Assembly: GCF_030052815.1 (NCBI RefSeq)
Contig: NC_079499.1
Location: 69,889,760 to 69,953,759, forward strand
Length of the DNA: 64,000 nt
Source of the DNA: Hevea brasiliensis
Lineage: Eukaryota > Streptophyta > Magnoliopsida > Malpighiales > Euphorbiaceae
Reading direction: 5' to 3'
The position numbers were made by a program, and so were the translations under genes. This document shows positions 23,131-64,000 of this stretch, one piece after another. Under the pieces are notes generated by a model. That model ran no database searches, was not told the origin of the DNA, and was given only the letters and a program-made list of their open reading frames with translations. Position 1 is the stretch's first letter. Every line of letters starts with the position of its first letter.

Positions 23131-24075
23131 GTTATGTAAAAGACTGCATAAGTGAAAAATGATTTATGCATAACCTATGCACTGTTCGGCAGGTATTGAA
23201 ATCTTAGGTTAGTGGTCATGCAGTTGTGCATGAGTCATGCACCTTCCTTATGCAAGCTTCGGTGACCCTTGAAATTTTGAGGAGCGAAGTCATGCGGGAG
23301 TGCATAAGTTATGCATTCCCCTTATGCATCTCTCGGCAGAAGTGGTTGTTCAGAAAATCGGGTCATGCAGAAGTGCATAGGTTATGCACTCTGCTCATGC
23401 ACTGTTCGGCAATTTTTGGAATTTTGGGTTGGTGGTCATGCAGATGTGCATAAGTCATGCACTCTGCTTATGCACTCTTCGGTGGGTTTTGAGTTTCAGA
23501 GAATGAGGTCATGCAGTTGTGCATAAGTTATGCACTCTGCTTATGCAGGTCTCGGCAACTTTGGTTTTTCTGGGTTTCTGGTCATACAGAAGTGCATAGG
23601 TTATGCACTCTGCTTATGCACCCCTCGGCAAGTTTGAATTTTTGGAGTTCTTGGTTATGCGGAAGTGCATAACTTATGCACCTTCCTTATGCACCCCTCG
23701 GCAAGTTTGATTTTTCTGGGTTTCTGGTCATGCAGAAGTGCATAGGTTATGCACTCTGCTTATGCACCCCTCGGCAGAATTGGAAATTCAGAGTTTTTGG
23801 TTATGCAGAAGTGCATAGGTTATGCACTCTGCTTATGCAGACTTCGGCAGAGAGAGAAAATGCAGAATTTGAAGTTGTGCTAATGTGCATAAGTCATGCA
23901 CTCACCTTATGCAAGTTTTGATAGATATGAAATTTGACAAAATGAGGTTATGCAGAAGTGCATAAGCTATGCACTCTCCTTATGCACTTGCAATAAAGGT
24001 GGAAAATGGCAAGAATTGTGGTTATGCAGGATTGCATAAGCTATGCAGTTGCTTATGCACAAGTTAGCAAGATCA
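23131..24075. repeat. Array of about 13 units, 73-74 bp period, each with TGCATAAGTTATGCA-type inverted repeats
   Basis: The recurrent word GTCATGCA / GTTATGCA starts at 23215, 23289, 23362, 23435, 23508, 23581, 23654, 23727, 23800, 23874, 23947 and 24021, spaced 73 or 74 bases. A diverged unit starts at 23131. Each unit has the word, then GTGCATAGGTTATGCA (an inverted repeat), then CTGCTTATGCA and CTCGGCA, then a variable spacer of about 25 bases. It lies between pol and the env-position ORF of element C. The period is not a multiple of three, so the ORFs seen here are chance. Confidence 0.95.
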
Positions 24076-28870: not shown

Positions 28871-30376
28871 TTGACTTGGAAGCTTTCCAAAAGACTTAGC
28901 ACTTGAGGAGGATGCTTGTTGTGCAATCTGGTTTTCCAGCATTCTGTTATGTGTTTGCATCTGTTCCAGCCTTGCTTTCACCTCTCTCATCTCCTCATCA
29001 TGCTTATTTTGGTTAGCAAGTATCTGTTGCAATAAAGCTTCAGTGGTGGAATTTCGTTCTTGCTGTTTTGGTGGAGGGTTCATATTTTTCTACTGAAAAT
29101 TAGGCAGTGGTTGCCTATTTTGCTGATATGGAACTCCTTGTTGCTGATGTGGTTGAAAATTCTGATTTTGAACTTGATTTTGCTGATTTCCCCATGAAAA
29201 GTTGGGATGATTCCTCCAATTTGGATTGTAAGTTTGAGAATAAGAATTCCCCATTTGTTTGTTTCCATAATTACCAACATATGCTGCTTGTTCTCCATAT
29301 TCTACTCCACAGCTGGTAGTTTCCTCTGCATAAGCCACTTGTTGTGAACTTCCAGCTGATGATGTTGAACTAACCAACATACTCAGATCTTCCATCTTCT
29401 TAGCAAAGACATTTGTAAGTGCATCAAACTTTGCATTAATCATGTTGAATGGATCAAGATCATACATTCCAGCAGCTTGCCTCTTTTGAGTTGGAGCTGG
29501 TCCTCTTGGACTACTCCAAAGATGAGTATTCTTTGCTATTTTCTCTAATAACTCATAAGCTTCATCTTCATGCTTAATGATAAATTCTCCTCCTGTTTGA
29601 GCATCAATAATTCCTCTGATTGCAGGAGTGACATTTGTGTAGAAATTCTGATTTATCATCCATTTTGGAATGGCATGATGTGGGCATAATCTCTCTAATT
29701 CCTTCCATCTCATCCATGACTCATATAGAGTTTCATCTTCTCTTGGTCTGAAAGCTGTCATTTGATTCCTCAACTCTTGAGTTTTTCCAGGTGGAAAATA
29801 TTGAGCAAGAAATGCATCAGTGAGCTGCTCCCAATTTGTAATGGAGTTGTGAGGTAAAGAATCAAGCCAATCCAATGCTCTATCTTTCAAAGAGAATGGG
29901 AATAGCTTCAATCTTGCTGCATCATCAGACACTCCAGGTTGTTTTTGCATGTCACAGATCATAGCAAACTTCTTCAGATGTGTGTGTGGATTTTCAGAAG
30001 GATGTCCTCCAAATTGAGAATTTTGAATCATTTGAAGAACTCCAAAATCCATCTTGTAGCTATTTGCATCAATCCTTGGTCTTGCTATGCTCTCTCTCAA
30101 GTCATCAAAACGTGGAAAAGCATGATCCATCATACTTCCCCTAGGCAGATTAGCATTAACAACTTCTTCACCTTGGGCTGCATTTTCGTTGTTTTGACCA
30201 TTTCCAGCATTACCAACACCAATTCTAATCCTCTCATCAGCCATGTCTGCTTCTAATTCAGTTTCTCTCAATGCTTCTTTCCTTTTTCTGGTTTCTTTCT
30301 TGTTGGCCTTACAAAACTTTTCAATTTCAGGATTAAACAGTAAGGATGTGTCACTTGTGCTTCTAGCTCTTCTCAT
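28856..30376 (-). pseudogene. Element C gag (stop and frameshift)
   Basis: The start at 30376 (MRRARSTSDTSLLFNPEIEK) opens 428 codons. The retrotransposon gag core includes FPFSLKDRALDWLDSLP, WEQLTDAFLAQYFPP and TLYESWMRWKELERLCPHH. A Gln/Asn-rich C-terminal region follows. A TAG at 29084, probably CAG to TAG, is followed in frame by NPPPKQQERNSTTEALLQQI and a short coiled-coil-like stretch. A one- or two-base indel in an A run near 28855 then shifts the frame into protease. No CCHC knuckle is evident, which is common in Athila gag. Confidence 0.92.
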
Positions 30377-43181: not shown

Positions 43182-46100
43182 TGTGACACCCCTCACCCGA
43201 CTGCAATGTAGCCGAGCAAGGCATGTCACACCCGGTGCCGGAGTACCTTATCTTATCTTACTTTATCTTTTAATGATTTTGGTTATCGTTTTATCTTAAA
43301 ATAAATTATTATTCTATGGAGAAACCAGCGGAGTTTCCCCTATTTTATTGTCGTTTTGGAGTATTTCCCTATTCACTTGCTTGAAAATTTGATAATATAT
43401 TGACAATAATAATCTTATCATATTAACTCATCATTTCATATGTCAATGTATTTCAATTCTCACATTCATTTCCATCCACTTTCATTTATACTCAACTCAT
43501 ATATCAAAATAATTGAAATTTCATAAATTCATGGTTTACATGATATATAAATTAATTACATATAGAGGAGCAAATTTATAAATTTACATCACATTCCTAT
43601 TAATTACCTGTTCATAATCTACATTACAATACAATATCTAAGAATTTTATACAAAATACAAAATATGATCTATATGGGCTCTATCTATATGCATTACTGA
43701 GGAGGTGACAATCTTATACACTTCTGACACTTCTGCCGATCTGGACTCCAAAATCCCAGTCTAGTATCCACTGGGCTTTATCTTTAGTACCTGCGCAAAG
43801 GAAACAAATCCATCATGCTATGCATTGCTGCTTAGTGGTGCAATAATATAACAAAGGAAATAATATACAAAATATAGATAGAAATAAAACATAGTTCATT
43901 GTAACATTTATTTAAATTATATTTCTATTACTAATCTTTTGTATCGTTTAATTCAATACTTTCTAGGTTATCTTAGATTATTTCATAATAATTAAAGTTC
44001 TCAGTGTCATTCAATAATAGATAAATTTTTAACATCAGTCCAGTTCATTTTAATTCTTTCTACTAAATAACTATTCTAATTTATTTTAGGTCGTCTTACT
44101 CATTTATTTAATTACTAATATTCTTAACTTATTTCAATAAACTTCACTGCCCAAGTAACCTATGACAGGCTGACTAAACTAGATAATGGGTCATTGGCAC
44201 TGGACACAGCGGTGCCTCGGGCCGTCATACCATGGGACACGGAACGTCAATCACATATGCAGTTAGTATGGCTAAAAAGTCATGATAACATATAATCGGG
44301 CATAAAAGCCATGAGTGCGAATATAAAGTCATGAGTGCGGGCATAAAGCCACGAATACAGGGCATAAAGCCTTACGCAGTACTGCTAAAACAATAAACTA
44401 TTAGCATGCCAATCTATCCAATCTGACACACGTGTCTAGGCAATATATGGGCACATAGTACCATTAAATGTTAATATATATTATGTTTTATGACTTCATT
44501 ATTTCATGATAAATTCCATAATTCATACATTCATTGGATCGCAATTTATATCAATTATCCTTATATCCCATTGTATTCAAAGTATATTTCCTTTCTCTAA
44601 TAAAGAGAATTACTATCTCATTTGTACATTAATATAATTCATTTATATAGTTCACTATTTATCAATCTCACTATCTATTTATCACTTACAATTTCTTATC
44701 TAATTTAATACATCAATTTACATGTACCTAGATTCAAGCAAATTTCATTTATATGTACCTAGATTCAAACATATTTATTTGTATTCATAAAAAGAATCTA
44801 AGTCTCAAATATTATTTTTACATTATTTACACCTTTAATATTTCATTTATAGTAATTTATAAATCACATTTCAAATTATATTAATAATGTCTCATAATTT
44901 AGGTATACATTAAATCCTTTAAGTGGGGTACCATTGACCCCATTAGCAACTTAAGTTTTTAATAGTTACTATTCACTTGACCATTTCCCTTCAAAGGTTA
45001 ACTTTTTAATTCATAATATGTATACAAATATTTGATACATATTTATACTAAATTTTAGGTTCTAAGTTTGTTGGCATTGATTGCCATTGCAAATTAAAGC
45101 CTTCTAGAAGTATTTTCAAAAATTCAGTTTTTGTGTCCTATGTTTAATGTTCCATTGGTCTAAGCTACAGTGAGAATCTAGCAAACTTTTCTTCATCAAA
45201 GTTGTTCCTTTATGTGTATTCGTTAATTTTCTTTTTGAATCACTCTATTTGGAGTTTTGTAGCTCAAGGTATGATCAATTTATCATAACTGGCCGGATTG
45301 GTCCTTACCTAGATTTTTAGGGCAAATTTGGTTCTGTTAAATTTGGTGTCCAAAATTGAACTAGCAATTTGAATTGGTTCGTTTTAGAATTTGAGTTTGG
45401 GTTCTGCATAAAAGTTGTTCTAAATTGTCTAATCTTTCAATTGATATAAAATTCAGATCATTTGGATATTTCTACATTGAGTTATGGCTAAATGAACAAA
45501 CACTGTTCATTTAGTCACTTTTCCAGGGCAGTATGTGTGTTACCCGGATTAGATTAATTTTTAGGGCAACTTAAGTTGGTTTTCTAGGCATGGTTTCTTC
45601 ACGAAAAATGTGGCTTAAGGTCTTAAATTTCATCTCTAATTGGCCTCACACTAATTGGAGCTATCTAGCTTTACTTATATTCATTTAAACACACTGGACT
45701 CATAGGTCCAGAAATCCTTGCACATGAACAACACTCCCAATACCACCTTCCCACACTACTACCATCCACAATTCACATTCCATACACTTCAATTAGTCCA
45801 TAATTGGTCTCAACATCAACAATTTATCCACATATCATTAAATTCCTAATTTTTATATCAAACCCTATCTCCAATTCAAGATTTACACAACACATGTCAC
45901 GTTAGGCATACTAATCAATTTCTAATTGATTTCAACTCATCCAACACCATTTCTAAAGCATTCAAATCCATCAAAACAATCAAAACTACTTACCCCATAA
46001 GGCTGCTGAAATTCATGGTATCCATACACATGGATTTTATTTCAATTCTTTGCAATTCCTAACTCAATTTATGCTCTTAATAATGAATCAAAAGAGAGAA

Positions 46101-46960
46101 AAGGGATAACTAGCACTAACCTCACTTGTGTCCAACTTGCCCTTGCCTAAACTTCAATTTCCTTTCACTTCTTGGCTGCCACTATCTTCCTCAAGGTATG
46201 GGATCAATTTTTATTAAAGTGATCTAGGGTTTTTACGGTGAGAAAGGGTGGGAATTCAAGCTTGGAAGCTTGAAAAATGGAAGAATGGCTAGTTGAGGAA
46301 GACAATGATCAGAATTGGTTTTCTCATTTTACTCATTTTTATCTCTTTTAATAGGGTTTTTAAGTATGTGTCACAATGTGATTGGGTGAAGAGTTTTTAA
46401 TGACATCATAGTGATGTCATAAGTCCATTTTAATTTATTTTATTTTCTTTTCTTTTTTACTCATTTTTAATTTAATTTTTAGCAATATATATTCATATTT
46501 TAGTTATATAAATTATTTATTTAATTGGACAAGTTGGCCAAAAATCATCTCTGAAGACGAAATGACCAAAATGCCCTTCGTTTGGCTTAACAGACTAAAA
46601 TTGTCTGTACCGATTTAAAAATTTTTCTAAGCATTTTCTTGGCATTCTAGTGCCATCGAAACCTCAAAGACTCTTTTCTGGAGTGGCAAAAATTATTTCA
46701 CTAAATTTCCCTCGGGTTTAGGGCTACTAGCTGTGAAGACAGCAACTTCCTGTTAGGGTCACCCATCACTAGGGCACCGGCTCATTTAACTTTTTTGTAT
46801 TTTATTGCTAAAATTTTTCCTTAATTTTTCTTATCATCATTTGACTTATTTATGACTCCTCACTCTAGTTTACATATAGTTCTAGATATTCCGACAGTCC
46901 GGATCGACATTAATCACCGGAACCATCGAATGCACGGACTAGCTAAAGTGAGGTGTTACA
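43182..46960 (-). repeat. LTR of element H (3.78 kb, 3' LTR in minus orientation)
   Basis: The ends are TGTGACACCCC and GAGGTGTTACA. On the right, ATTCTTTCCCTC (46961-46972) is the reverse of a purine tract and is followed by CCTCGAAATTTACC, as at the end of element B. From about 44405 to its right end it closely matches L (61603-64000). No gene is seen. Confidence 0.88.
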
Positions 46961-47455: not shown

Positions 47456-48320
47456 TGTCACACCCTACCCCTCCGTAAGGCATAACATGATCCCATAGTA
47501 TACCTAATGAATTACCAACTTAATCTATTGATAACCCATTAAAACACTTCAAGGGATTTTAAAACTTTTCTTACTTCTTTTTACAGTGGTGAGCACTATT
47601 GATAGGTGTTAAAAATTCTTTTAAAATTTGAAGTATTAATAATTTCTGTAAAAATTTTGGTAGAGTGCCATCTGTATTTTGAATAAAACAGTTCTTCAAA
47701 AACCTGTAAAAAAGCACTTCAAATATATAATTCCTCAATCCCAAAATCCAATAATTTTGTTCAACATAATAAATTTCTCAACATTATCAACTCAGTTTAA
47801 CAATCAATTTTTCAGTGTTTCAAAAGCTGAGATAAGATAAATATATGACAATATTTTTACAAGCCAAAATAATTTACAATTTTAGTTTACAACTGCTCAA
47901 GACCAAGTACAATATATACATACAGTGCAATTACATTACAACAAAAACTACAAAATATGGTATACTCAATATACCCAGTGAAATCTCAAAATGTGGTACA
48001 AGCAGACTACTCTGCTGCTCTGTCCGTCTGTCTACCTGCGACAGTAATGAAAAAGCTATAGCTGAGTAAAATTTACTCAGTGGTGCACAATAACAATTTA
48101 AAATGTGGTATATAAAACTTTTATTGACAATTTACAATCGAAACAATTCACAATTTTTCAAAGTTCATATAACACAAATTTGATCAAACAATTGAATAAC
48201 ACAGTGTTGCCAATCAATAACACAATTTGATCAAATAACTGAATAACACAGTTTTGCCAATCAATAACATAATTTAGGCCACGACACAAATTTTTTTCGA
48301 ACTGTAACACCCTAGGCAAA

Positions 48321-48362
48321 TCCCACATCGACAAAACACGGGAGAGATGCTGGGTTTATAAG
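48321..48362 (+). promoter_or_regulatory. snRNA-type promoter signature in TRIM LTR: USE and TATA, 24 bp apart
   Basis: TCCCACATCG (48321-48330) equals the plant upstream sequence element of snRNA genes. TTTATAAG (48355-48362) follows after exactly 24 bases. In plant snRNA genes this short spacing goes with RNA polymerase III genes such as U6, while polymerase II genes have about 33-34. The same pair is at 48542-48551 and 48576-48583. In the right half the TATA-like box reads TTCATAAG. Use as a promoter is inferred. Confidence 0.6.
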
Positions 48363-48523
48363 TTGGTGGTTCGTAACCCCTAGTGACGCGTTTTAAAACC
48401 GTGAGGGCTTCGGCCCAGAGCGGACAATATCACTAGTGGGCCGGGCCATTGCTCCGCGTGCAACCTTGAACGATGGTGGGTCAAACCTCAGCGAGGACGC
48501 TGAGTCCCATAAGGGGGGTGGAT

Positions 48524-48674
48524 TGTAACACCCTAGGCAAATCCCACATCGACAAAACACGGGAGAGATGCTGGGTTTATAAGTTGGTGGTTCGTAACCC
48601 CTAGTGATGCGTTTTAAAACCGTGAGGGCTTCGGCTCAGAGCGGACAATATCACTAGTGGGCCGGGCCATTACA
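48524..48674 (+). repeat. TRIM LTR (left half, second copy, 151 bp)
   Basis: It is complete, from TGTAACACCC to CCATTACA. It shares with 48303-48449 the text GGTTTATAAGTTGGTGGTTCG, which differs from both LTRs of the right half (GGTTCATAAGATGGAGGTTCC). Confidence 0.93.
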
Positions 48675-48680
48675 TTTGTA

Positions 48681-48730
48681 AAAATTTGGACCATTTCTCG
48701 ATTTGTGCGTGTCATCCTTGCGCAGGGGCC

Positions 48731-48762
<32 letters not shown>

Positions 48763-48782
48763 TCGGATGTCCCCGAAGAGAT
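48681..48782 (-). ncRNA. U6: U6 spliceosomal snRNA, full-length 102-nt copy (probably a retrocopy)
   Basis: Read on the minus strand, it matches plant U6 snRNA over its whole length, including the ACAGAGA box (ATACAGAGAAGATTAGC), the AGC triad region, and the 3' end GGTCCAAATTTT. U6 pairs with the 5' splice site and U2/U4 in the spliceosome. The only changes I see are in the first four bases (ATCT for GTCC). No USE/TATA pair lies at the correct distance upstream (TRIM LTR sequence is there instead), so autonomous expression is doubtful. Placement between two TRIM ends points to capture by reverse transcription. Confidence 0.95.
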
Positions 48783-48783
48783 A

Positions 48784-49175
48784 TGTAATGGCCCGGCCCA
48801 CTAGTGATATTGTCCGCTCTGGGCTGAAGCCCTCACGGTTTTAAAACGCGTCGCAATGGGTTAGGAACCTCCATCTTATGAACCCAGCATCTCTCCCGTG
48901 TTTTGTCAATGTGGGATTTGCCTAGGGTGTTACAATCCACCCCCCTTATGGGACTCAGCGTCCTCGCTGAGGTTTGCCCCACCATCGTTCAAGGTTGCAC
49001 GCGGAGCAGCTCTGATACCACAAATGTAATGGCCCGGCCCACTAGTGATATTGTCCGCTCTAGGCTGAAGCCCTCACGGTTTTAAAACGCGTCACAATGG
49101 GTTAGGAACCTCCATCTTATGAACCCAGCATCTCTCCCGTGTTTTGTCGATGTGGGATTTGCCTAGGGTGTTACA
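48784..49175 (-). mobile_element. TRIM retrotransposon, right half (complete, minus orientation)
   Basis: LTRs of 151 bp lie at 48784-48934 and 49025-49175. The 90-base internal region carries, on the minus strand, leader TTTG, primer site TGGTATCAGAGC (49009-49020), and a purine tract ending GGGGGGTGGAT at the 3' LTR. Its LTR sequence variants differ from the left half, so it descends from a different TRIM copy. Non-coding. Not Cassandra, as no 5S rRNA-like segment is seen. Confidence 0.92.
49009..49020 (-). other. Primer binding site of right TRIM (tRNA-iMet)
   Basis: On the minus strand TGGTATCAGAGC fully complements the 3' end of plant initiator tRNA-Met. It is four bases (TTTG) from the LTR end. 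Confidence 0.92.
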
Positions 49176-52083
49176 CGAACATGCTGTGTGTACATCACGA
49201 CAAGGCACACTCACCCCAATAATCAAAATCAATGAGGGAGGAAGCTAGCTAGATAATGAGAACTCATTCACACTCACCTCAAACTAACAAGTCAAAGAGG
49301 GGGGAATATAATCACACTCACCTCATAAATGTAGGAGGAAAATAGTCACACTCACCCCATAAATGGAGGAGGAAAATAGTAATATTGTCATGCCAAGTGT
49401 GAATCAAAACAATTCCAAATCACAATATTTAAATATTTCATACAAACCACAAAATCATATTTTATCTCAAAATTTCCATTTGCAAAGTAGGCAACACAAT
49501 AATTTTCAAATAAGATTCCCAAAGCCAAAACAATCAAATATTATTCATAACTCATTTCTCCAAATAAATTTTCTAGTAAAAACAGTGAATATAAAAAGTA
49601 TTATGCACAGACACAATTTAAAACTATAATGTTCAATTAAATTTTTAAGTAGAAAATGAGAAATCAAAATTATTGTGCACAAACCTTGTTTGAGTCGCCT
49701 CTAGGCCTTGACATAGTGTTCCTTATGCTTCTCAATATCCTTTTCAACTGAAACACACAATTGAAAGTGTTTCAATACTCAATGATTTTGTTTCTAACAA
49801 TAAAATCCAATATTTAAATTTTCTTGGCACTATTCCCTTCAATTCATTTCATTAGTCAACCTATAATGTTGACCCTTGATGCACTCTAAGTGAGTCAATT
49901 CTAATGTTACCAATATGTCACATTTTATAGCCCTTTAGTGTTGGTATATGTTACTAATTTCATTTCCAAGTGTATTGCATTTTATTGCAATTTACTGGAT
50001 TTCGGTGTACTATTTTGACCTAGCCGGACGACCTAGTTCCCTCTGTTTTTGGGTTTTGGTCCAAACTACAAACTTGTAGGTCTATGTCTTATTGCACGCG
50101 GGGCAAAGTTTCAGGTCATTCTGAGTTGTGTAGTCGAAGTTATGGTCAATTTACCAATGCTGGACAGAATGCACCAAAATGGTAACTTTAGGTCATTTTG
50201 AGGTCACTTTTGGTTCGGCCAGTTTTGATACCTGAACTTGTGCAAGCTATTTGGCTTGGTTCTGGCCATTTCTGGGCTTTAGTGTTTTCATAAGAATTGT
50301 AGCTCTATGTCTAAGCTATCCATGGTAAAAATTTTAGGTCAATTGGACCTGTTTTGAGTGAGTTATGGTCATCCTAATGACTACTGTTTATATGGTAAAA
50401 AATCTGGGTTATAAGGTTGCCATTTCGGATTTGGTCATTTTTCAAGTCACCTTCTGGGCAGAATTTTGGTAAGCTTCCTTCATGAAAGTTGGCACATTTT
50501 GTGCCTAGTTTCACCTCCAATTGGTCTCATACCAATTGGAGTCACATACTTAAGGTTCTAAGCTAAAACATACACTGCTTTGCTACAACTTCTTCATCAC
50601 TTACCAATTACACATTCAATATTTACCAAGCTAACTCTTTCATGCCAATTCTGGTTTGTACCATACCATTAACACACTTAACAACACATTTTGGTTATTT
50701 TGGATAGCTTGTAACCATTCTCAATATACACATTATAACCCAGAATTTTCCAAGTCCATTTACACAATTTAACCACATGAACATACCTCATTTACATGTA
50801 CAAATCCAAACTGTTATTCACATACACATGCTGCCACCATAAGCAACATAATTCAACAATATTTCATGAACTTAAATACTTCAATCTTCTTCATGAGACT
50901 GCCACAAGTTTACACATACTCATCAACTTCCATTTTCACTTTTCAAGCTTACAAATCAAACTTTACATTCATAATTCACACATACAAGAAGATTAAATTG
51001 CTAGCACTTCAAATGGACTCAACCAATGCTAATTCCCATCAATTCCCACCAACTTAATATAAGAAAAACTCAAGCAACTCACCTCCCGTGGCTGCCAAAA
51101 AAGGACAGTCCATAATTCAACCATTTCTTCAAATTTCTTCATCCAAAATACTACCCATAACCTCAACACAAGTTTTAATTAAGGAAGGGAAGAAAATAAG
51201 CACTTACCTCTTATTTGAGCTTGCTAAAACCTCACCCAAACTTCTTCTTTTTGCTGCCAATGTCTTCCTCAAGTTGAGTATGCAAGGCTTAATGAAGAAA
51301 CTTAGTGTAAAAGAGGGCTAAATGTGGAGTGCATGGAGGTTTTTCAAGGTTTGGCCATGGTGGTTCTTTAATGAAGCTTTCGGCTGATTTTTTTCTCAAG
51401 GTTGAAGATGAGTATTTTGCTATCCCAAAGGCTTATAAAGGTGTCCCAAATTATGAGTTAGTGGAGCATTAACTTGGATTAAAGAATTAATTATCCAAAG
51501 TTTCCTAAATTACGATTTTACCACCATTCTTTCACTATTAATATAATGTATCACAATTTAATTTTTTTTATGATATTTTCAAAGTTTAATATCATTTATT
51601 TTTAATGGATATTTAGGTCAAAAGGCAACCCGGGGTGTCAATTGACCAAAATGCTCCTATTCGGGTTGTATTCCCAATTTTTCGGTAACACCGATTTTTG
51701 TCGTTTTCTCAATTTCTTATTTTTCTTTGTACTAATTAATTAATTTTTCTTTGATATTTCTAATGATATTTATACTTCAATAGATGTTTATTTAAGTCCT
51801 AAAAATATTTTCTAGGGTTCCCCGCCGTCCAGGGCTAGTGGGTCCACGCCTCAACTTCCCGGTGCAGTCACTCATCGCTATGGTTCTCGGCTCGTTTAAC
51901 TTGGTTACATTTCATTGCTATTATTTTTTCTTTGTTTTTCTTGTATTTTCTTTTCTTGTATTTTATTATTTTATATCTCCTCACTAATATTTAAATGTAG
52001 TTCTAGGCATTCTAGCTGTGCGGACAGACACTGGTCATCGAAACAGTAGAACGCACTACCAAACATAGGGGTGTTACACCTGA

Positions 52084-61602: not shown

Positions 61603-64000
61603 TATCCAATCTGACATACGTGTCTAAGCAATACATGGGCACATAGTACTATTAAATGTTAATATATATTATGTTTTATGACTTCATTATTTCATGACAA
61701 ATTTTATAATTTATACATTCATTTGATCGCAATTCACATTAATTATCCTTATGTCCCATTGTACTCAAAGTATATTTCCTTTCTCCAATAATAAGAATTA
61801 CTATCTCATTCGTACATTAATATAATTCATTTATATAGTTCACTATTTATCAATCTCACTATCTATTTATCACTTACAATTTCTTATCTAATTTAATACA
61901 CCAATTTACATGTACCTAGATTCAAGCAAATTTCATTTATATGTACCTAGATTCAAACTTATTCATTTGTATTCATAAAAGGAACCTAAGTCTCAAATAT
62001 TATTTGTACATCATTTACACCTTTAATATTTCATTCATAGTAATTTATAAATCACATTTCAAATTATATTAATAATATCTCATAATTTAGTTATACATTA
62101 AATCCTTTAAGTGGGGTACCAATGACCCCATTAGCAACTTTAGTTTTTGATAGTTACTATTCACTTGACTATTTCCCCTCAAAGGTTGACTTTTTAATTC
62201 ATAATATGTACACAAATATTTGATACATATTTGTACTACATTTTAGGTTCTAAGTTTGTTGGCATTGATTGCCAATTGCAAATCAAAGCCTTCTGGAAGT
62301 TTTTCAAAAATTAGGTTATTGTATCCTATGTTTATTATTCCATTGGTCTAAGCTACAATGAGAATCTGCCAAACTTTTCTTCATCAAAGTTATTCCTTTA
62401 TGTGTCGTTTTTAATTTCCATTTTGAATCACTCCATTTAGAGTTTTGTAGCTCAAGTTATGGTTAATTTACCATAACTGGCTGGATTGGTCTTTACCCAG
62501 ATTTTCTGGGCAAATTTGGTTCTGCTAGATTTGGTGTCCTAAATTGGACTAGCAATTTGAATTGGTTAGGATCAGAATTTGAGTTTGGGTTCTTCATGAA
62601 AGTTGTTCTAAATTGTCTAATCTTTTCATTGATATAAAATTCAGGTCATTTTGATAATTCTACACTGAGTTATGGCCAAATGAACAAACACTATTCATTT
62701 GGTCATTTTTCCAGGGCAGTATGTGTGTTACCTGGATTAGGTCAATTTTTAGGGCAACTTAGGTTAGTTTTTCTAGGCATGGTTTCTTCACAAAAAATGT
62801 GGGTTAAGGTCTTAAATTTCATCTCCAATTGGCCTCACACAAATTGGAGTTGTCTAGCTCTACTTATATTCATTTAAACACACTGGACTCATAGGTCCAG
62901 AATTCCCTACACATGAACAACACTCCCAATACCACCTTCCCACACTACTACTATCCACAATTCACATTCCATGCACTTCAATTAGTCCATAATTGGTCTC
63001 AACATCAACAATTTATCCACATATCATTAAATTCCTAATTTTTATATAAACCCTAGCTCCAATTCAAGATTTACACAACACATATCACATTAGGCATACT
63101 AATAAATTTCTAATTGATTTCTACACGTCCAACACCATTTCTAAACCATTCTAATCCATCAAAATAGTCAAAACTACTTGCCCCATAAGGCTGCCAAAAT
63201 TCATGGTATCCATACACATAGATTTTATTTCAATTCTTTGCAATTCCTAACTCAATTTATGCTGTTAATAATGAATCAAAAGAGAGAAAAGGGATAACTA
63301 GCACTAACCTCACTTGTCTCCAACTTGCCCTTGCCTAAACTTCAATTCCTTTCACTTCTTGGCTGCCACTATCTTCCTCAGGGTGTGGGATCAATTTTTA
63401 TTTAAGAGATCTGGGGTTTTTATGGTGAGAAAGGGTGGGAATTTAAGCTTGGAAGTCTAAAAAATGGAAGAAGAACCCTTTCATGGTGGTTCGGCTGGTT
63501 GAGGAAGACAATAATCAGAATTGGTTTTCTCATTTTACTCATTTTTATCTCTTTCAATAGGGTTTTTAAGTATGTGTCACCGTGTAATTGGGTGGACAGT
63601 TTTTAATAACATTATAGTGATGTCATAAGTCCATTTTAATTCATTTTCTTTTCTACTCATTTTTAATTTAATTTTTAGCAATATTTATCATATTTTATGT
63701 TATATAAATTATTTACTTAACTGGACAAGTTGGCCAAAAATCATCTCTGAAGATGAAAATGACCAGAATGCCCTCCATTTGGCTTAACAGACTAAAATTA
63801 TCTATACCGATTTTAAAATTTTTCTAAGCATTTTCTTGGCATTCTAGTGCCATCGAAACCTTAATGACTCTTCTCTGGAGTCCCAAAAATTATTTCACGG
63901 AATTTACCTCGAGTTTAGGGCTACTAGCTGTGAAGACAGTAACTTCCCGTTAGGGTCACCGATCACCGGGGCACCGGCTCATTTAACTTTATTGTATTCT
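61603..64000 (-). repeat. LTR L (H family), truncated left by K and right by the window end
   Basis: It matches 44405-46815 of LTR H almost continuously, with scattered substitutions and small indels. It may be the 5' LTR of element H, but the connecting primer site is lost. It holds no gene; the short ORF at 62680 is chance. Confidence 0.87.

Follow-up and report, generated by a model that had tools for sequence, protein, structure and literature searches.

In maize, the retrieved text of Gao et al. 2016 (PMC4717578) describes a pair of SMART elements, which are terminal-repeat retrotransposons in miniature (TRIMs), lying in inverted orientation within one target-site duplication (TSD). Complex long terminal repeat (LTR) elements that arise by a template switch at R were described by Sabot and Schulman 2007 (PMC1950507). 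Retroviruses package U6 small nuclear RNA (snRNA), and reverse transcription of snRNAs has been proposed as a source of pseudogenes, as outlined in the parts of PMC4997597 and PMC4476161 that draw on Giles et al. 2004. Here we analyze a stretch of 64,000 nucleotides (nt) from Hevea brasiliensis (contig NC_079499.1, positions 69,889,760 to 69,953,759; hereafter the window), in which a full-length U6 copy lies between two inverted TRIMs at positions 48298-49180. Comparison with further loci of the same genome makes it probable that reverse transcriptase jumped end to end, from TRIM complementary DNA (cDNA) to U6 RNA and from there to a second TRIM cDNA, and that integrase inserted the product via its two outer U3 ends. 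It seems that such units are formed repeatedly as a side product when TRIMs are reverse transcribed and that they do not propagate themselves.

Two inverted TRIMs and U6 within one target-site duplication

From left to right, the unit consists of CGAAC, a left TRIM on the plus strand, TTTG and a further T, U6 on the minus strand, 1 nt, a right TRIM on the minus strand and CGAAC again. A sequence-only reading of the window had proposed that CGAAC repeats enclose a full-length U6 with a plus TRIM before it and a minus TRIM after it, and all of these parts were found in place by inspection of the sequence and an Rfam match. The two 5-bp copies of CGAAC (48298-48302 and 49176-49180) enclose the pair and not each TRIM; the flanks that separate insertions would have left are unequal (CGAAC/TTTGT for the left TRIM, AGATA/CGAAC for the right), as that reading had also stated. 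An identical 5-mer at both ends was seen in 0.19% of 200,000 random stretches of unit length in the window. The outer ends of the two TRIMs are identical and read TGTAACACCC, which bears out the earlier statement that the same LTR end faces both sides.

The left TRIM (48303-48674, plus strand, 372 nt) begins with LTR A (48303-48450), whose last 3-4 nt are gone together with the leader and the primer-binding site (PBS), 20 nt being missing in all, the 12-nt PBS among them. A purine-rich stretch located by eye at 48511-48523, which we take to be the polypurine tract, precedes LTR B (48524-48674, 151 nt, TGTAAC...ATTACA). The right TRIM (48784-49175, minus strand, 392 nt) comprises LTR C (48784-48934) and LTR D (49025-49175), each of 151 nt, and an internal region (48935-49024) that includes the leader and the 12-nt PBS TGGTATCAGAGC (49009-49020, minus strand), present in this TRIM only. 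This 12-mer presumably fits initiator tRNA-Met. The same 12-mer is named as PBS in the retrieved text of PMC7215508. Each element thus has the two direct LTRs, TG...CA ends and short length of a TRIM. The U6 copy (48680-48782, minus strand) is complete (Rfam RF00026, model positions 1-105 of 105, 106.6 bits) and has a tail of 5 T; compared by eye with the Hevea U6 gene candidate L058, it shows mismatches at nt 1 and nt 4. A U6 gene would have its own upstream element and TATA box before nt 1; here the 5' side of U6 meets the U5 end of a TRIM within 0-1 nt, a single nucleotide (48783) separating the two. Similarly, no LINE (long interspersed nuclear element) adjoins this U6 and the duplication is not of the LINE type; TRIM LTRs flank it on both sides within a 5-bp TSD.

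The left joint, ATTACATTTG, shows which cDNA end was involved. The LTR of the right TRIM leads into TTTG, after which comes TGGTATCAGAGC; since the TTTG beyond the left LTR (48675-48678, plus strand) thus equals this leader, the left joint corresponds to a U5 cDNA end prior to trimming by integrase. A single extra T (48679, plus strand) separates it from U6. The two TRIMs differ at seven positions fixed in both LTRs of each, whereas comparison of the two LTRs of each TRIM gives 2 and 3 differences, so that two source copies are needed and one molecule folded back on itself is ruled out.

The use of two U3 ends was examined in 50 loci, after exclusion of L007, L008 and places already represented. 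A recognised U3 end was found within range on both sides of 36 of them, and 23 of these two-ended loci show a perfect 5-bp repeat at some pair of ends (at L040 by way of an inner end), against 4 of 1260 cross-locus pairs, two of the four being, by inspection, the L036/L037 pair. Among the two-ended loci that carry U6, the proportion is 9 of 13. These repeats indicate that U3...U3 molecules integrate, and together with the other loci they support the earlier proposal that an inverted, chimeric cDNA centered on U6 integrated through two U3-type ends.

That two TRIMs inserted independently next to a U6 pseudogene, or that recombination occurred later, would be conceivable in a genome where TRIM arrays and clustered copies occur, but neither TRIM of the window has a TSD of its own, the junctions extend 1-5 nt beyond the LTR end and, as described below, the joint between U5 and U6 recurs at 23 loci; already contradicted in this way, the explanation has next to no probability.

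U6 at TRIM U5 ends across the Hevea genome

A search of the genome with the unit, limited in scoring to the best 40 of 3381 candidates, returned at least five further near full-length matches of 86-91% identity, in addition to many solo or arrayed TRIMs. U6 is central in four of the five (L002-L005); the center of L006 is instead a partial LTR. Matches to this TRIM overlap in clusters, in the manner of head-to-tail arrays, at C15:66812596-66814979, C8:90338877-90340458 and C7:10522244-10523364.

Further copies of the TRIM-U6 junction, which the sequence-only reading had suggested looking for, proved to be common. A pattern demanding both an unprocessed U5 end and a U6 3' end matched 19 places and none in the control; the pattern counts given here and below are of exact matches, and mutated junctions are missed. 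Four more loci found otherwise (L005, L031, L036 and L037) bring the total to 23. The sequence TTACATTTG is present in all 23, with G replacing the first A in L005, and is joined through 0-2 extra nt to a run of 4-7 A from the U6 tail. On the other side, the U6 5' ends are spread from nt 1 to nt 72, as copying from the U6 3' end would give. Thirteen of the 23 loci continue beyond the U6 5' end with inverted sequence of this TRIM, which in some (L010, L018 and L023) is just a piece. L024 and L027, and likewise L036 and L037, share their junctions and also flanks or TSD, and look like duplicates.

The proposal that the palindrome is a mobile unit replicating as such, a new class according to the sequence-only reading, would account for the near full-length matches with U6 in four of them among the best 40. 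The A-tail length, the extra nucleotides and the U6 5' ends vary among loci, though, and the pairs with common junctions are the apparent duplicates just mentioned. In addition, a transcript started from one LTR would lack matching R ends. We regard this as extremely unlikely: because junctions, U6 truncations and partners all differ among loci, the units seem to arise afresh and not by copying themselves, and the suggested class found no support.

The window's left junction gave 0 matches in a scan of a genome contig collection, and TRIM words gave 0 matches in a scan of viral contigs.

Joints between U5 ends and tRNA-like copies

U5 ends are also joined to one another. The pattern ATTACATTTGN{0,30}CAAATGTAAT matched 64 places, and none in the control. 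Fillers were judged by eye at the 50 of these 64 places listed: 28 are 0-4 nt in length; 13 have at least 6 nt and start TGGTAT, five of these being 18-19 nt long and therefore reaching beyond the 12-nt PBS. The PBS is followed by CGCTCCG, TGCTCCG or CACTCCG in most copies of the element and by CTGGTTT in three loci (L036, L037 and L048). This CTGGTTT presumably fits the primer tRNA and not the element, and we take the part after the PBS as copied from tRNA. In L036 and L037, 33 tRNA-like nt adjoin U6 nt 38-103. The arm bearing the tRNA-like copy in each of these three loci consists of a single LTR that ends at the TSD, the shape that plus-strand strong-stop DNA would have. With 85-115 nt allowed between the ends, the pattern matched 14 places (control 1), of which three contain U6 (L031, L036 and L037) and the other 11 look like they contain TRIM pieces. 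Our analysis thus indicates that the formation of inverted dimers at the tRNA-primer end is recurrent.

These fillers bear on a rival route, in which DNA end repair joined two linear TRIM cDNAs and a separate U6 cDNA at their U5 ends before integration through the U3 ends. The fillers of 0-4 nt at 28 of the 50 listed junctions are typical of end joining, and other fillers are pieces of TRIMs. The polarity of the U6 copies, with a complete 3' end and a variable 5' end in the loci found, argues the other way, even if it is partly a search bias, and the tRNA-like copies point to reverse-transcription intermediates; on balance end repair is an unlikely source of these joints.

The place of the tRNA is also where a U6 RNA acting as minus-strand primer instead of tRNA-Met would be found, and U6 does lie within 0-2 nt of the first minus-strand DNA nucleotide; the left TRIM of the window even lacks a PBS. 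The last 25 nt of U6 also pair with the template somewhat better than when shuffled (-12.6 vs -9.2, s.d. 2.3), though inside the LTR and not at the PBS. Against this role, the last 12 nt of U6 reach -5.7 kcal/mol, compared with a shuffled mean of -4.5 and with -21.3 for a 12-mer complementary to the PBS. Moreover, the TRIM on the U6 3' side retains its PBS in L002, L003, L004, L005, L011, L036 and L037, and the last two carry U6 and the tRNA-like copy together. Given the weak pairing of these 12 nt and the PBS kept elsewhere, annealed U6 was rejected as the primer, a role we consider highly unlikely.

U6-type promoter elements in the TRIM LTR

Nine of ten U6 candidate genes have a TCCCACATCG-like upstream element followed 23-24 nt on by a TATA-like box, 30-31 nt before nt 1; the tenth, L062, has neither. 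By comparison with these genes, LTR A contains a U6-type upstream sequence element (presumably the one known as USE), ATCCCACATCG, at 48320-48330 (plus strand, LTR nt 18-28), and 24 nt downstream of it a TATA-like TTTATAAG at 48355-48362 (plus strand, LTR nt 53-60). The first motif reads ATCCCACATTG in LTR C. LTR D carries the upstream element at 49148-49158 and TTCATAAG, the other form of the second motif, at 49116-49123. The gap is 24 nt in 130 of 137 TRIM LTRs, a figure that measures spacing and not presence, as the pattern required both motifs. In plant snRNA genes, the spacing of the upstream element sets the polymerase. Based on the motifs, the TRIM RNA is predicted to be made by RNA polymerase III (Pol III), like U6, and its predicted transcription start lies at LTR nt 81-84. 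Three LTR pieces start at nt 81-82 (in L006, where the piece is the filler, L034 and L046), with a fourth cut by the end of the L046 locus; such pieces are what strong-stop DNA from the predicted start would give. The shared promoter type may be the reason for the link between U6 and this TRIM.

A proposed route by jumps of reverse transcriptase

Taken together, these observations fit a route in four steps. A tRNA-primed cDNA would first be finished with its natural U5 end left unprocessed, a sequence present in the 23 U6 loci. The 3' end of the plus strand would then switch to a U6 RNA present in the same particle, landing on its oligo-U 3' end, and U6 would be copied fully or to a 5' truncation. 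A second jump would lead to a further TRIM plus strand, at its 3' end, and this strand may still bear a copy of the primer tRNA, in line with the tRNA-like copies observed at junctions. The product, with a U3 end on each side, would finally be inserted, presumably by integrase, with the 5-bp duplication seen at these loci.

Several observations weigh against this route. Ten of the 23 U6 loci (L012, L013, L014, L017, L019, L022, L024, L025, L026 and L027) have no inverted TRIM directly at the U6 5' side, so that only the first jump is visible in them, and the complete U6 3' ends are in part a search bias, since the junction pattern required them. Distinct sources of the two arms are clear in the window unit only, the fixed differences numbering 0 in L003, 2 in L004 and 3 in L005. 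Thirteen of the 36 two-ended loci lack a perfect 5-bp repeat; in 10 of the 13 the flank at the outermost recognised end is that of an inner LTR (TGGAT leftmost in eight, ATCCA on the right in L015 and L044), and the other three have no such flank. LTR pieces begin at many positions other than nt 81-82. The loss of the PBS from the left TRIM has no parallel in the other U6 palindromes that were checked; as these retain their PBS, it was dropped as a trace of the mechanism. The alignment of an empty site is also unstable: MAFFT places one TTCGAAACAT at the site in both paralogous LTRs and a pairwise aligner does not, so the paralogues were not used as an empty site. The end-repair route counts against the jumps as well.

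The one-sided fusions were also inspected for an outer 5-mer repeated past U6. The flank AAGCA of L012 recurs 15 nt beyond the U6 piece, maybe by chance, no repeated outer 5-mer was found near L014, and L013, L017 and L026 have no recognised TRIM outer end. In L012, L013, L014 and L017, a mostly 5'-truncated U6 is fused to one TRIM U5 end, and L017 has another TRIM-like end and a PBS nearby.

Other U6 copies and other features of the window

In a survey of U6 copies, 48 matches out of 146055 first-look candidates were scored and ranked. These comprise ten gene candidates, 11 of the 23 junction loci and 27 further copies. Within a short flank, 18 of the 27 match part of this TRIM LTR (E up to 0.1), six of them with the U5 end of this TRIM after the U6 3' end (L073, L078, L079, L080, L081 and L090, altered in L073 and L080). 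L068 has this LTR on the U6 5' side only. L076 and L092 have no LTR-like flank, and several others have ends resembling other LTR families. In this score-ranked set of 48, therefore, 29 of the 38 U6 copies that are not gene candidates touch this kind of LTR. Another family forms a palindrome of 648 nt with U6 at its center and GTTTT repeats outside (L094:731-1378, C16:25274300-25276400). In L096:700-960 (C6:56478200-56480000), U6 lies between ends resembling two different LTR families, as if both RNAs had shared one particle.

Elsewhere in the window, direct repeats of 2.4 kb that are 91% identical (44415-46801 and 61603-63998) probably belong to larger LTR elements nested around the unit. A tandem array with a 73-nt period occupies 23176-24060, its copies being 61-81% like the reference copies. 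A gag frame of the window aligns with Hevea brasiliensis proteins at 91-96% over 25-44% of its length in several matches and less closely in others. At 29670-29777, antisense to a gag reading frame, there is an Rfam match to snoR71 with 43 bits (threshold 40), probably by chance.

Comparison with known systems

The Hevea loci make a proposal from retrovirology, that packaged snRNAs are reverse transcribed into pseudogenes, visible at many places of one plant genome, and they show U3...U3 integration as a recurrent event. Intermediates in the reverse transcription of plant LTR elements seem to be preserved in their junctions, namely unprocessed U5 ends, tRNA-like copies and strong-stop pieces, and the predicted U6-type promoter in the LTR offers a suggested and testable reason why U6 is the partner.

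The sequence-only reading knew of no described plant element of this form. This stands for U6, as no plant LTR element carrying it was found in the open-licence PMC literature searched, but not for the inverted pair, which has the precedent in maize. Like the maize inverted TA-TRIM (PMC4717578, as far as its retrieved text goes), the Hevea unit has two inverted TRIMs inside a single 5-bp TSD. The maize work, on the other hand, gives one inverted example and no mechanism for the inverted pair, and snRNA has 0 occurrences in its retrieved main text. As in the elements of Sabot and Schulman (PMC1950507), two co-packaged copies would have been fused and inserted once with one TSD; those elements are in direct orientation and share an LTR, whereas the Hevea copies are inverted and joined at U5 with U6 between them. 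For animal retroviruses, the relevant parts of PMC4997597 and PMC4476161 contain the proposal and a few old LTR-associated snRNA copies, in contrast to the recurrent U6 joints at the primer end in Hevea.

With regard to the promoter, the closest relatives are the TRIMp3 elements Cassandra, Helenus and Ajax, which have a Pol III promoter in the TRIM LTR (Kojima 2024, PMC10886601, retrieved text), that of the Hevea TRIM being a prediction from its motifs. According to the same text, TRIMp3 promoters are derived from 5S rRNA or tRNA, whereas the motifs in the Hevea LTR are similar to those upstream of U6 genes. The U6/LINE-1 chimeras, attributed to template switch or RNA ligation in the retrieved portions of PMC13174262, PMC4476161 and PMC2104539, likewise have U6 joined to a retroelement; there U6 is mostly in sense orientation at the LINE 5' end, whereas in Hevea it is joined to U5 ends of an LTR element within 5-bp TSDs. 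We therefore put forward, tentatively, that a plant TRIM with a borrowed U6-type Pol III promoter regularly captures U6 at its tRNA-primer end and that U6 pseudogenes in this genome stem mainly from LTR elements and not from LINEs, which would make the structure, by way of two U3 ends, the LTR counterpart of the U6/LINE-1 chimeras.

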